Source: Fervidobacterium gondwanense DSM 13020 (GTDB lineage: Bacteria > Thermotogota > Thermotogae > Thermotogales > Fervidobacteriaceae). Taken from it: a stretch of DNA of 64,000 bases. The stretch covers positions 1 to 64,000 of the forward strand of contig NZ_FRDJ01000007.1 in the NCBI RefSeq assembly GCF_900143265.1, in the 5' to 3' direction. Under the pieces are notes generated by a model. It worked only from the letters and a program-made list of their open reading frames with translations, was not told where the DNA came from and searched no databases. The position numbers were made by a program, and so were the translations under genes. Shown piece after piece: positions 34,208 to 39,818 of this stretch (within the stretch, counting starts at the first letter, position 1; every line of letters begins with the position of its first letter).

Positions 34208-34526
34208 ACATCTCTAAAGTAATCGAGTCCACCTTTGCTTCTATTTCAAATTTCTTCATGTAAGGCGCAATAGCGAAAATATCTTGTAGACTTCCAACTT
34301 GTGTGGCAAGAGACGAATAATATCTCAGCTCAGGGTGGTCTTTTATTTTTGAGAGTTTTTTTAATTCCAGTATTACATCATCAGTCGCTTTGATGTTTGC
34401 TTCAAGCATTACATAGAAATTCTTGTCGGATACTACAATTTCCGATGAAACAAGGTGGGCACCGTTTTTTAACAAATAATAAGTCATCTCATTCATAACT
34501 GAAACGATAAGCTTTTCAATTTCCAT
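34194..34526 (-). CDS. hypothetical protein in the DUF1576 operon
   Basis: A 110-residue cytoplasmic protein with no family recognised. It starts MEIEKLIVSVMNEMTYYLLKNG and alternates predicted helices with beta strands. No cysteines, metal motifs, signal peptide or membrane segments stand out. The ATG at 34526 is used because GGGGTGA precedes it; an upstream in-frame ATG at 34547 is inside the DUF1576 gene. It overlaps both neighbours, so it is translated as part of the three-gene unit. The overlap suggests a function tied to the membrane protein or the hydrolase. Confidence 0.65.
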   Translation of the reverse strand: MEIEKLIVSVMNEMTYYLLKNGAHLVSSEIVVSDKNFYVMLEANIKATDDVILELKKLSKIKDHPELRYYSSLATQVGSLQDIFAIAPYMKKFEIEAKVDSITLEMFVER

Positions 34527-35760
34527 TTCTTTCACCCCACTTCTCAACGATTCTGTTCTTTATATTTTTAACAGCTTCTATTAATGGTAAAAGGAAAAGT
34601 GCCACAAAACCTCCTGAGAAACCATTATTGTAGAGGTTCATTCCAAAATGTAAGCTTCCAATGTTCAAGACAAGTGCGCTGTGGAGGTATCCAGCGATTA
34701 TTCCCCAAATAAACCCGAATTCACCTGCTATAGGTGCCAATGTGGTTCCAAACAGAACAGCTAAGACCATTATAGGACTATTTACAGGTTGAGAATTTGT
34801 TAGTGCTCCTATCATAACACCAAGAAAGACAGGTGCAATATTCTTTGGATGTTTTCCCAACGCTCCGAAACCAGCCAACGTCATTATTCCGCCGATGGTT
34901 GGTCCATTGAGCGGTGCACCAACCAACAAGACGTATGACGTACCTATCAAACCAAGTATACCAACGTTCATAAACGCAATTGCCTCATTTTCCAAAAGCA
35001 CAAAGTCTGTTAGAAGTTTTCCCGAATATTTGAATATGCTTTTGTATTTCGCAAATGTCCAGCCGTTCAGTTTTAGCCCATACAACAGAATGAGATAAAA
35101 GAAGGTGTATACAAAGATAGACAGCAACAATTGATTTTCAGTGTGCCATATCAATCGAGGTTCTGGATGTAAATCATACGCTCTCAATATTCCACCGATA
35201 AACATTCCTAACAAACCAGCAGTGAAACCAATGTTGTAGAGGTTATATCCTCTGTGCAAAGTTAGAGCAAAGCTTCCGAGTGGTGGAAGGAAGAATCCAA
35301 TTATCAAGACGATTATCAAACCGATATAATCAAAACCTTTGTCAAGAACAAGATGCGTTGTTATAGGTGCGAGTGCTGTTCCAAAGTACGAAACGTATAG
35401 GTAAGTTCTCACATTTTCACCAATAACAATTGAATAAAGAAATACTCCCGCAACAATTGGCCATACATTGAAGATATTCTTACCAAATAACGCGAAGCCA
35501 CCAATAGTCATCACTGCTGCAACCGAAACACCCGTTGGGTTGATTTTGAGAAGCTTAAAGATAAATGTAAAGGCAAGCATCAAAAATCCGCTGTTTAAGA
35601 AAGCTCCTCCTAATCCTGCAATTTCAAAGTAATCCGTAATTAAATAATCAGGTGATTTGATAATATGAATAAGTTCTTCAATTATGTTAAACCCTCCGAC
35701 AGCAATGCCAAAAACAATAAAAATAAAGGAAATGGTAAATAAAAATCTATACACCACCAC
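34516..35760 (-). CDS. DUF1576 integral membrane protein
   Basis: A 414-residue polytopic protein with about eleven hydrophobic segments. It resembles DUF1576, an uncharacterised family. The protein shows an internal duplication. GTALAPITTHLV with LHRGYNLYNIGFTAGLLGMFIGG in the first half parallels GTTLAPIAGEFG with LHFGMNLYNNGFSGGFVALFLLP in the second. GGFALFGKN parallels GGFGALGKH. Such inverted or tandem repeats are typical of transporters, so a transport role is likely but the substrate is unknown. It is first in its operon. Confidence 0.8.
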   Translation of the reverse strand: MVVYRFLFTISFIFIVFGIAVGGFNIIEELIHIIKSPDYLITDYFEIAGLGGAFLNSGFLMLAFTFIFKLLKINPTGVSVAAVMTIGGFALFGKNIFNVWPIVAGVFLYSIVIGENVRTYLYVSYFGTALAPITTHLVLDKGFDYIGLIIVLIIGFFLPPLGSFALTLHRGYNLYNIGFTAGLLGMFIGGILRAYDLHPEPRLIWHTENQLLLSIFVYTFFYLILLYGLKLNGWTFAKYKSIFKYSGKLLTDFVLLENEAIAFMNVGILGLIGTSYVLLVGAPLNGPTIGGIMTLAGFGALGKHPKNIAPVFLGVMIGALTNSQPVNSPIMVLAVLFGTTLAPIAGEFGFIWGIIAGYLHSALVLNIGSLHFGMNLYNNGFSGGFVALFLLPLIEAVKNIKNRIVEKWGERNGN

Positions 35761-35824: not shown

Positions 35825-35853
35825 TTGACAAAAATCTCCGAAAATGTTAAACT
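35825..35853 (+). promoter_or_regulatory. promoter of the ABC exporter leader transcript
   Basis: TTGACA (35825-35830), a 17-bp spacer and TAAACT (35848-35853) make a good promoter. It predicts a leader RNA of about 300 nt before the first exporter gene. Confidence 0.65.
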
Positions 35854-35922
35854 ACTTCTGTAAAAACTTTGCAAAGCGAACTTTTGCTGAAAATTACAGC
35901 GAAATGAAAGGAGGGTTGTCCG

Positions 35923-35997
35923 ATGAAGATGACAAAGCAAGCATTAATTAAAGTTAATAAGACCTTTTTCAAAGGACAACCCTGTGTTGGAGGTTAG
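35923..35997 (+). CDS. 24-residue leader peptide upstream of the ABC exporter genes
   Basis: A short reading frame starting MKMTKQALIK and ending FKGQPCVGG, then TAG. It has one of the best ribosome binding sites in the window: AAAGGAGGG at 907-915 of the 35-kb block, seven bases before the ATG. It lies between a promoter and an intrinsic terminator. Part of its own ribosome binding site (35912-35921) can pair perfectly with codons 18-21 (35974-35983). It has no recognisable domain and is probably a regulatory leader whose translation senses ribosome state, as for the BmrB leader of Bacillus bmrCD. A functional peptide is not excluded. Confidence 0.65.
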   Translation: MKMTKQALIKVNKTFFKGQPCVGG

Positions 35998-36061
35998 AAC
36001 CCAGACCTTTAGATTTTCCAAACTTGTCTAACTCCGTACAATTTATGAGGCCAAAATAGAT

Positions 36062-36096
36062 ACTCCACGGGTTGTTCCGTGGAGTTTTTTGTTTTC
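36062..36096 (+). terminator. intrinsic terminator / attenuator before the ABC exporter genes
   Basis: ACTCCACGG (36062-36070) pairs with CCGTGGAGT (36077-36085) around GTTGTT and is followed by six T. It sits downstream of the leader peptide and 64 bases before the first exporter gene, in the same transcript. Its loop and stem base (GGGTTGTTCC, 36069-36078) can instead pair with GGACAACCC (35974-35982), leaving one bulged base. That pairing would prevent termination. Confidence 0.85.
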
Positions 36097-36159
36097 AAAT
36101 AGTGCAGTCATAGTCACATTCGAGACTTCTGAGGATTTCAAAATTTTGGGGGGATTGAG

Positions 36160-37995
36160 ATGGAGAAAGTATACGGCAAATCAAAGAAAGGATACATTGA
36201 TAACCTAAGGATGTTAAATAAGTTCATGAAAGGCAGTCGAGTTTCTTACTTCGTAGCCATAGTTTCGACTGCATTAGCTACGTTCCTATCAATTCTGACA
36301 CCACTTGTTATAAGGTTTACACTCGATAATTTGATAGGAAGAAAAGAAATCGATTCACAACTTGTAAGACGTTTAGTGAATCTTGTTGGATATGAGTTTC
36401 TTTCACGAAACATATGGATAGTGGGCGTCTTTATCGTTCTGCTTACTTTATTGAATGGACTTTCAAGCTACCTGAGAGGAAAGTATTCTTCAAAAGCTGC
36501 GGAAGGGTTTGCAGAGAGGCTAAAGAACGCTCTGTTTGAAAAGATAATCAAAGTTCCTGTAGAATTTCACAGCAAATACAGTTCCGGGGAGCTCATTCAG
36601 AGGTGCACCTCTGATGTAGAGACAATCAGGAATTTCCTTGCAAATGAATTAGTTGAAGTCAGCAGAACAATTTTTCTAATAATAATGGTCATGTATACTA
36701 TGCTTCGAATGGACAAAGTGCTAACCGGAATCGCAGTGGTAACGATTCCTGCATTGATTGGCGTATCATACTGGTTTTTCAAAATGGTAGAGAAGTATTT
36801 TAAGATGGCAGATGAAGCTGAAGCGGAAATGACGACGGTTGTACAAGAGAATATAACGGGAATACGGGTTGTAAAAGCTTTTACCCTCGAAAGAGAGCAG
36901 ACAGAGAAGTTTCAGAGTAAGAACCTGAACTTTCAAAGGCTTGACTATAAACTGTATGTTTTGTTTGCAAGATACTGGGCAGTGAGCGATTTTATAGCTC
37001 TCGTTCAGATTGCGCTCGTGAGTATCTTTGGAATATTCTTTACAATTTCTGGGAAGATTACATTAGGCACGTTCATTGCATTTACAAGTTATGTTGGTAT
37101 GTTCCTTTGGCCAGTAAGACAGCTTGGAAGAATTCTTTCGAATTTAAGCAAGATGAATGTGTCTCTCAACAGGGTCGGGGAGATATTGAAACATGAAGAC
37201 GAGACATCGGATGAAGTTTCAGAAAGTGAAGAGATAAGGGAATGGACATTCAGAGGTGAAATAGAATTCAGGAATGTATCGTTTAAATACGGTGATAATG
37301 AAGTGCTTCGCGGTGTTTCTTTCAAAATCGATGCTGGAGAAACAGTAGGGATATTTGGTCCTACTGGGTCTGGAAAATCGACTCTTCTTAATCTATTGCT
37401 GAAGCTCTATACTAACTATGAAGGTGAGATACTTATCGACGGAATTGAGTTAAGAAATATTCCAAGAAAGGTGCTGAGAGAGAATATAGGCTTTGTTTCA
37501 CAAGAGCCATTCCTGTTTTCCAAGCAAGTTGATGAAAACGTTGCAATAACAAAAGAAACGATAGATATGGAAGAAGTTATGTATGCAACAACTACAGCAT
37601 CTTTGCATGATGATATCGAGACTTTTCCAAACAAATATAAGACAATCATAGGTGAACGTGGTGTCACACTTTCAGGCGGCCAAAGACAAAGGATGGCGAT
37701 AGCAAGAACCATAATTAGAGAATATCCTGTGTTGATATTTGATGATTCCATGAGCGCCGTTGATACCGAAACTGAATACAAGATACGTTTGGCTTTAAGA
37801 GAACGAACAAAGGGACTAACTACTATCATAGTCTCTCATAGAATTCCAAGTATAAAACACGCAGACAAGATAGTCGTTTTGGAAAATGGCATTGTTACGG
37901 CTATAGGCAAGCACGAGGAGTTGATAAAAATTGATGGGATTTACAAGAAAGTTTGGAAAATTCAGTCGTTGATCGAAGATGAGTACAGAAGCTGA
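36160..37995 (+). CDS. heterodimeric ABC exporter, subunit with degenerate ATPase site (TM287/BmrC-like)
   Basis: A 611-residue type IV ABC exporter half: six transmembrane helices (about 30-320) fused to an ATPase domain. Motifs are Walker A GPTGSGKST (about 403), signature LSGGQRQR and Walker B LIFDDSMSAVD. The catalytic Glu after Walker B is replaced by Asp529, as in the degenerate site of TM287/288 and BmrCD. The downstream gene supplies the other half. Likely a multidrug or lipid flippase-type exporter. Expression appears controlled by the leader/attenuator just upstream. Confidence 0.9.
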   Translation: MEKVYGKSKKGYIDNLRMLNKFMKGSRVSYFVAIVSTALATFLSILTPLVIRFTLDNLIGRKEIDSQLVRRLVNLVGYEFLSRNIWIVGVFIVLLTLLNGLSSYLRGKYSSKAAEGFAERLKNALFEKIIKVPVEFHSKYSSGELIQRCTSDVETIRNFLANELVEVSRTIFLIIMVMYTMLRMDKVLTGIAVVTIPALIGVSYWFFKMVEKYFKMADEAEAEMTTVVQENITGIRVVKAFTLEREQTEKFQSKNLNFQRLDYKLYVLFARYWAVSDFIALVQIALVSIFGIFFTISGKITLGTFIAFTSYVGMFLWPVRQLGRILSNLSKMNVSLNRVGEILKHEDETSDEVSESEEIREWTFRGEIEFRNVSFKYGDNEVLRGVSFKIDAGETVGIFGPTGSGKSTLLNLLLKLYTNYEGEILIDGIELRNIPRKVLRENIGFVSQEPFLFSKQVDENVAITKETIDMEEVMYATTTASLHDDIETFPNKYKTIIGERGVTLSGGQRQRMAIARTIIREYPVLIFDDSMSAVDTETEYKIRLALRERTKGLTTIIVSHRIPSIKHADKIVVLENGIVTAIGKHEELIKIDGIYKKVWKIQSLIEDEYRS

Positions 37996-38018: not shown

Positions 38019-39818
38019 ATGGAAGAAAAACTTGATAATATAAGCCGAAAGAAAGAACGAATTGATGTAAAGCTTTGGCAGGGTTTTTTCGAGTTTCTGA
38101 AAAAATACAAGATAAAAGTGTTACTTCTCCTATTAGTCATGGTATTAGTTGGCCTAATTGAAGCTACATTTCCTTACCTTACAAGGTTTGCAATTGACAC
38201 TTTCGTTGTACCTAAGAGCTTCAACGGGTTCTGGAAATTCATAGCTGCATTTTCTTTGCTTACAACAATTCAATCGATAAATACATATGTCTTAATTGTT
38301 CTTGCAGGAAAAATCGAGACTGGAATGACACGAGACATAAGGAATTCTGCATTCTCTAAGCTACAAAAACTCCCGTTAAGCTTCTTTGATGCTAACGGAA
38401 CAGGACCGCTCATAGCCAGAATTATGTCGGACGTGCAAAGAGTTACCGGAATTTTATCATGGGGAATGGTTGATACGGTTTGGGGTATATCTACAATGAC
38501 ATTTATCACGTTCTACCTTTTTAGGTTGAACTGGAAAATGGCTCTTTTTGTTGTTGGCAGCATACCTGTGATTTTCTTTGTGAGTCTGTACTTCCAAAAG
38601 CTTATTTTGAGACATTATCGAATAGTTAGAAGGTACAATTCGGAAGTTACAGGAAAATTCAACGAAGGAATTCTCGGAGCAAAAACAACAAAAATTCTTT
38701 CAGTTGAAGAAAAGACTATTGCAGAATTTTCACAGCTAACCTCAAAGATGAGGCAAGAGGCAATAAAAGCTTCGGTAATATCTTCGATATACACACCAAT
38801 TATTGTCCAAATAGGTAGCATTGTTACGGCACTAATTCTCGTGTATGGCAGCAAAAACTTAGAGCAAGGAAGTATCACATACGGGACTTTGGCGGCTTTC
38901 ATCTCTTACTCTATCCAATTTTTTGAGCCGCTGCGCGAACTTTCACGTGTCATGGCTGATGTTATCTCTTCACAGGCTGCTGGCGAACGTGTTATGGAAG
39001 TATTGCGAGCGCAATCAGAAGGTGAATCAAGTAGAGAGTACGCCTTAGCTGAGTTTGGCTTTGAGGGGAACGTGGAGTTTAGGAATGTTTCTTTCAAGTA
39101 CAATACAAGTGACATGGTTCTCAAGAATTTTAATTTAAAAGTTAAAAAGGGAGAGAGAATCGCAATTGTTGGACCGACAGGTTCTGGCAAGTCAACAATA
39201 GTAAACTTACTTGGGCGCTTCTATGAACCTACAGAGGGCAAGATATATTTTGATGGGGTTAACTACACAGAAATTGATTTGCGAACTCTCAGAAAGAACA
39301 TTGGATATGTACTCCAAGTTCCACACCTTTTTAATGGAACTATTGCAGAGAACATAGCTGTTGGAAAACCCGGTTGTACTCTTGAAGAAATTGTTGAGGC
39401 AGCAAAGGTTGTGAACGTCCACGACTACATTGTCAAACTGAAAGACGGCTATAATACACTCGTGGGAGAAGGTGGAACAAATCTCTCCGTAGGTCAGAGA
39501 CAGTTAATAGCTTTAGCGAGAGTAGTCTTGGCAAATCCAAAAATCATAGTTATGGATGAAGCAACCAGTTCAATAGATGCCCACACAGAACATATAATCC
39601 AAGAATCTATCGATAAGATCTTACACGGAAGGACGAGTTTTGTAATAGCTCACAGATTGTCAACTATACGGAGTGCTGACCGGATTTTGGTCATAGAAAA
39701 CGGAGAAATAATAGAAGACGGAAGTCATGAACAGCTTATGAAAAAGAGAGGGCACTATTACCGACTATATATGCAACAATTCGTAGAGGAAAAGGAGAAA
39801 GAGTTGTTCAACGTGTAA
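38019..39818 (+). CDS. heterodimeric ABC exporter, subunit with intact Walker B (TM288/BmrD-like)
   Basis: The 599-residue partner half-transporter, with six transmembrane helices and an ATPase domain. Walker A is GPTGSGKST and Walker B is IIVMDEATSSID with the catalytic Glu514 intact. The signature is LSVGQ (489-493) rather than LSGGQ. In a heterodimer this altered signature faces the degenerate Walker B of the other subunit, so the pair has one consensus and one degenerate site. The gene starts 23 bases after its partner, behind AAGGTGG. Confidence 0.9.
   Translation: MEEKLDNISRKKERIDVKLWQGFFEFLKKYKIKVLLLLLVMVLVGLIEATFPYLTRFAIDTFVVPKSFNGFWKFIAAFSLLTTIQSINTYVLIVLAGKIETGMTRDIRNSAFSKLQKLPLSFFDANGTGPLIARIMSDVQRVTGILSWGMVDTVWGISTMTFITFYLFRLNWKMALFVVGSIPVIFFVSLYFQKLILRHYRIVRRYNSEVTGKFNEGILGAKTTKILSVEEKTIAEFSQLTSKMRQEAIKASVISSIYTPIIVQIGSIVTALILVYGSKNLEQGSITYGTLAAFISYSIQFFEPLRELSRVMADVISSQAAGERVMEVLRAQSEGESSREYALAEFGFEGNVEFRNVSFKYNTSDMVLKNFNLKVKKGERIAIVGPTGSGKSTIVNLLGRFYEPTEGKIYFDGVNYTEIDLRTLRKNIGYVLQVPHLFNGTIAENIAVGKPGCTLEEIVEAAKVVNVHDYIVKLKDGYNTLVGEGGTNLSVGQRQLIALARVVLANPKIIVMDEATSSIDAHTEHIIQESIDKILHGRTSFVIAHRLSTIRSADRILVIENGEIIEDGSHEQLMKKRGHYYRLYMQQFVEEKEKELFNV

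Follow-up and report, generated by a model that had tools for sequence, protein, structure and literature searches.

A putative ribosome-sensing attenuator leader ahead of a heterodimeric ABC exporter in Fervidobacterium gondwanense, with counterparts in Clostridia

The exporter genes and their leader

The window, a stretch of 64,000 nucleotides from Fervidobacterium gondwanense DSM 13020 (contig NZ_FRDJ01000007.1, positions 1 to 64,000), carries two adjacent half-transporter genes on the plus strand. The first (36160-37995) encodes a subunit of 611 aa with a degenerate catalytic site, its Walker B motif ending in DD and residue D529 being invariant in 8 orthologs, and the second (38019-39818) encodes a subunit of 599 aa with a canonical DE Walker B motif. 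Two neighboring half-transporters, one of them with a degenerate site, make up a heterodimeric ABC exporter. The preliminary description of the locus had likened this exporter to BmrCD as a homolog; its heterodimeric nature stands, but orthology with BmrCD is not demonstrated, since TM_0288 and others outscore YheI/YheH among the solved exporters. The nearest matches of the exporter among 61 related genomes are from the same genus and family and share 47-57% identity with it. The divergent neighboring gene (34516-35760, minus strand) encodes a DUF1576 membrane protein (Pfam PF07613, E 1e-102).

The leader occupies positions 35825-36090 on the plus strand. It begins with a promoter that runs from TTGACA at 35825 to TAAACT ending at 35853 (10/12 consensus, 17-nt spacer, extended -10 with TG), followed by a Shine-Dalgarno (SD) sequence, GGAGG (35910-35914), that is conserved in alignment A1 and serves a leader ORF of 24 codons encoding MKMTKQALIKVNKTFFKGQPCVGG (ATG at 35923 to TAG at 35995-35997). 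An intrinsic terminator, ACTCCACGGGTTGTTCCGTGGAGT plus a T run (36062-36090, with the hairpin at 36062-36085), completes the leader. The elements named in the preliminary description are in place at the coordinates given there, and the leader presents a short, translated-looking ORF between a promoter and an intrinsic terminator. The interval between the promoter and the SD also holds a small hairpin, TTTGCAAAGC(A/G)AACTTTT (35867-35885), which is found upstream of the SD in L007 and L008 as well.

Three strands within the leader can pair in mutually exclusive ways. Strand 1, GGGTTGTCC (35913-35921), overlaps the SD and stops just short of the ATG; strand 2, GGACAACCC (35974-35982), lies inside the ORF; and strand 3, GGGTTGTTCC (36069-36078), covers part of the 5' arm and the loop of the terminator. 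Strand 2 pairs with strand 1 over the SD as an anti-antiterminator (off) or with strand 3, with one bulge, as an antiterminator (on), and the positions of both pairings were verified. The sequence and duplex energies further suggest that UGGAG, 3' of strand 2 (35988-35992), is a potential partner of CUCCA (36063-36067). This pairing, absent from the preliminary description, would lengthen the antiterminator and cover the lower terminator stem, and a similar GGAG is found 3' of strand 2 in four of the eight family leaders. A third hairpin that had been described across the ORF stop (35989-36035) was rejected: the complementary letters are present, but the stretch from strand 2 to the terminator folds no better than shuffled sequence (z +0.69), and none of seven relatives has an equivalent.

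In the predicted fold of the free window-leader RNA (-61 kcal/mol, z -2.97), strand 1 pairs with strand 2 and the terminator hairpin is present. A chance origin would mean that an ordinary promoter, a small ORF and a terminator were left between two genes and happen to hold complementary letters, and an ORF of just 24 codons with an unconserved peptide is what such a remnant might look like. When the SD and terminator were held fixed and the intervening DNA was dinucleotide-shuffled, however, none of 400 shuffles contained a site that pairs equally well with both partners (observed -20.1, best shuffle -17.1). This result, together with the conservation of the layout in 8/8 orthologs and its broad occurrence among Clostridia, makes chance complementarity hardly credible.

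Conservation in the family and the proposed switch

Upstream DNA could be read for eight exporter orthologs in the family, counting the one in the window; a ninth, L009, is truncated by a contig edge. A lack of conservation of the ORF or of the alternative pairings in relatives had been put forward as a finding that would overturn the attenuator reading, and the reading survived this check: promoter, SD, AUG, strands 1, 2 and 3 and terminator are kept in 8/8 orthologs, and the strands carry compensatory changes (e.g., GGGUUGCCC/GGGCAACC/GGGUUGCCC). The strands of L007 co-vary in this manner, reading GGGTTGCCC on the SD side, GGGCAACC in the ORF and GGGTTGCCC in the terminator. All eight leaders have a TTGAC-type -35 box 52-85 nt 5' of the SD block, strand 2 begins +47 to +60 nt from the ATG in all eight, and the leader ORFs are 16-39 codons long. 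The start region of the ORF falls within the anti-antiterminator in the family leaders, and in L002, L003, L004 and L006 the 1:2 helix extends to the AUG. For strands 1 and 2, 91.7% of the aligned cells are paired in register compared with 20-51% when one strand is slid by 1-3 columns, and two pairs are altered on both sides; for strands 2 and 3 the values are 95.8% and 29-59%. Shuffling letters among the eight close relatives reached the observed 1:2 percentage in 145 of 500 trials, and so this percentage alone is no proof of 1:2 covariation.

No such leader was found upstream of the distant Thermotogota exporters L010-L015. Across 103 genomes from the phylum, a covariance model of the eight family leaders (R1) matched strongly only the eight known leaders; its weak matches elsewhere in Thermotogota were ordinary terminators, apart from a terminator scar, L028, in G012. 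A strict DNA pattern recovered only four of the eight known copies. L028 (G012:C4:105955-106064) consists of a lone terminator, ACTCCATGGGTTGTCCAACTCATGGAGT plus a T run, with the same upstream neighbor as in L003 and the exporter gone, and is a scar of exporter loss.

By its anatomy, as read from the sequence, the leader belongs with the ribosome-mediated transcription attenuators of the trp/bmrB/vmlR kind, having a mutually exclusive anti-antiterminator, antiterminator and terminator that are conserved in relatives. We consider it very probable that the leader would act as a ribosome-sensing transcription attenuator of the heterodimeric ABC exporter, with strand 2 released to disrupt the terminator when a ribosome is halted on the first codons. 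If the leader carries no ribosome, strands 1 and 2 would pair and the terminator would end transcription. During normal translation, the ribosome would reach the stop codon just beyond strand 2 and cover that strand, and the terminator would again form. A ribosome held on the first few codons would instead mask strand 1 and leave strand 2 bare to capture strand 3 as it emerges from RNA polymerase, whereupon the terminator would fail and the exporter be made. The holding agent would be a ribosome-binding antibiotic, as analogy with vmlR and bmrCD and the nature of the downstream genes suggest. The basis for the proposal is comparative: the three-strand layout, changes that preserve the 1:2 pairing, the open ORF, the position of its stop, the unconserved peptide and the association with efflux and resistance-type genes.

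Constrained folding is consistent with these states in most of the family. In six of the eight leaders, free RNA had 1:2 pairing close to 1 and 2:3 pairing close to 0. When the region from the SD to +16 was masked and only the 5' arm and loop of the terminator were present (37 C), 2:3 pairing reached 0.72-0.98 in seven of the eight, in six of them rising from about 0. L005 favors 2:3 even without a ribosome (0.76 unmasked), and L008 hardly forms it when masked (0.03). With the complete terminator at equilibrium, the terminator beats the antiterminator in seven of the eight leaders despite the masked start, and switching must therefore be kinetic, with the antiterminator forming first. We infer that the antiterminator wins by speed, and that termination and read-through take place in cells. 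The edge of an initiating ribosome lies at about +16 (vmlR toeprint, PMC9226507); strand 2, at +51, is calculated to stay free until roughly codon 12 of leader translation, and a ribosome sitting on the stop codon overlaps strand 2. The ribosome edge and the stop position thus define three states: untranslated and off, translated to the stop and off, and held early and on. The order of events first proposed for the locus, in which a held ribosome frees strand 2 and strand 2 then breaks the terminator, fits both the constrained folding and the finding that the stop codon lies shortly beyond strand 2.

Clostridial leaders and copies before other genes

Alignment of the eight exporters led to 80 relatives, mostly clostridial, with 38-48% identity. 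In a tree, the family exporters adjoin the clostridial ones and are far from other Thermotogota exporters; an old transfer, in one direction or the other, is likely. Many of the clostridial relatives have a leader of like design whose strands differ in sequence and still pair, such as AGGTTATAAACATG with CATGTTTATGACCT in L056, GGCAGGCAAAATG with CATTTTGCCTGCC in L115, and GGTCGTG, CACGACCTATG and CATAGGTCGT in L058. About half of the upstream regions in the first clostridial set have no candidate or a pairing that is not significant. Among the clostridial and family upstream regions with a candidate, 20/48 leaders showed pairing of the SD-start region with the ORF at p<=0.01, compared with 0/43 exporter starts and 3/152 other gene starts. 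A second set of 59 further clostridial loci gave p<=0.01 in 26/48 and p<=0.05 in 40/48. Several clostridial leaders, the GC-rich group L078, L095, L098, L107 and L115, have 2:3 pairing at chance level. A count of the best 9-mer pairings separated too poorly from shuffled sequence (sum 215 vs 189), and duplex energies were used instead; by this measure strand 2 prefers its own terminator arm over those of other loci, also when Clostridia are taken alone (-223.6 vs -171.0, 0/5000 permutations).

A set of 53 leaders contains 36 distinct strand pairs. In these loci, which were picked for good pairing, 405 of 424 strand positions pair, against a mean of 263 after exchanging strands among loci, a count that is not an independent test; the stop position and reading frames are more telling. 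The stop codon lies 5-21 nt beyond strand 2 in 45 of the 53, with a peak at 11-13. In the clostridial and family comparison above, with no ORF required, the frame of the start codon (frame 0) stays open as far as strand 2 in 21/23 leaders, against 0/23 and 10/23 for the other frames.

These features bear on two alternatives. In the first, one particular drug would make a defined nascent peptide stall the ribosome, as in leaders of the ErmCL or RLR type. The leader ORF does appear to be translated, given its SD and open frame, and strand 2 frequently encodes QP or RP. Nevertheless, no conserved arrest motif of this type is found, the peptides are dissimilar across the eight family leaders, and strand 2 is read in all three frames among the 53 leaders (22/20/11), differing in frame even within the family (L003, L006). 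In L007 and L008, moreover, the stop codon precedes strand 2 by 4 nt, so the ORF ends before strand 2 is reached. We therefore regard an arrest peptide as very improbable. The second alternative, that a riboswitch or protein-binding attenuator senses the pump substrate directly and that the ORF is incidental, appeals to the fact that terminator/antiterminator switches can operate without translation and that ABC-leaders of unknown mechanism have been described by Naville and Gautheret in 2010 (PMC2965389). Against it, there is no conserved aptamer; Rfam returned no family at gathering score, with only chance matches in the window and a tRNA in one relative. In addition, the SD and start region are always part of one helix, and the openness of the ORF and the position of its stop are conserved. 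Direct sensing by RNA or protein is, in our estimation, likewise very improbable.

An RNA model built from clostridial leaders alone (R2) finds the window leader precisely where it lies (L001:1246-1431, 26.6 bits, E 0.028). Across 150 genomes R2 gave 60 matches, 48 of which lie 42-437 nt 5' of the exporter. Most of the remaining readable matches, together with a second batch, leaving L217, L218 and L221 aside, sit ahead of other efflux or resistance-type genes, a placement that is expected if the signal is ribosome inhibition. They precede MFS pumps (L215, L220, L226-L228), other two-gene ABC exporters (L230, L232, L233), a GNAT acetyltransferase (L216) and DJ-1-like plus GNAT genes (L224, L231), and for L219 the downstream gene, some 700 nt away, encodes a SpoU/RlmB-like rRNA methylase. 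The genes behind L219, L216, L231 and L224 are candidate intrinsic resistance genes. In the G106 family, R2 matched none of 100 genomes; it missed even G106, which has a leader with other strand sequences, and this blank is thus uninformative.

Several loci show particular arrangements. At L215 (G138:C1:1288900-1293500), two consecutive MFS efflux genes have one leader copy each. In L129, L131, L137, L068 and other clostridial leaders, tandem, nearly identical terminators (CCATAGG..CCTATGG) precede the exporter, the second one without the GTG part of strand 3. At L225 (G287), the leader is intact and the first gene of the exporter is split into several frames.

Comparison with known attenuators and implications

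The preliminary description named BmrB as the known parallel. The leader ORF, terminator and antiterminator before the heterodimeric multidrug ABC exporter of Bacillus subtilis bmrB-bmrCD, which is induced by 50S-targeting drugs, are indeed alike (PMC4191407). The BmrB ORF is longer, however, and contains its three structures internally, at nt 60-162 and off the SD (PMC4191407), whereas strand 1 here overlaps the SD and the switch is not confined to coding sequence away from it. The closest parallel is instead Bacillus vmlR. The B. subtilis vmlR leader likewise has an anti-antiterminator, antiterminator and terminator, with the uORF inside the anti-antiterminator; the initiating ribosome breaks the anti-antiterminator, the SD and start codon of the uORF are essential, drug-held initiating ribosomes switch the leader on, and the uORF sequence varies naturally (PMC9226507). 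The vmlR uORF is only 3 codons long and regulates an ABC-F factor (PMC9226507), while the ORFs described here have 16-46 codons, none being so short, and would control efflux pumps. A further difference from vmlR is that the end of the ORF carries strand 2, with the stop just beyond, and finished translation would provide a second route to the off state.

The rli80 leader of Listeria hflXr also combines a short ORF with an anti-antiterminator, antiterminator and terminator and is induced by stalled ribosomes, but its 14-codon ORF encodes an RLR arrest motif, of which there is no conserved counterpart here, and it precedes a different gene (PMC6310831). The ABC-leaders resemble the present leaders in placing premature terminators and antiterminators before ABC transporter operons, one of them before a multidrug exporter in lactobacilli; the mechanism is left open there, and the text considered describes no SD-overlapping three-strand design (PMC2965389). 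Searches of open-licence papers returned no relevant case in Clostridia or Fervidobacterium and no description of the leader.

Induction of the exporter by ribosome inhibitors would follow by analogy with these systems, and from sequence comparison the leader has the look of a sensor for antibiotics that block the ribosome, one that is widespread and uncatalogued. On balance, we favor the possibility that it is an RNA sensor of early-arrested ribosomes that is mobile and independent of the peptide, placed before unrelated efflux and resistance-type genes in Clostridia and one Thermotogota family, for which the untranslated and fully translated leaders are both off and arrest within the first few codons is the only signal. 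If that is the case, one RNA design would connect ribosome inhibition with many pumps of Clostridia and thermophiles that are so far unstudied, and would provide a sequence rule for locating intrinsic drug-inducible resistance genes. It would also explain how a leader with no conserved peptide may sense many drugs, and would mean that antibiotic-type attenuation reaches a thermophilic lineage outside the Firmicutes.
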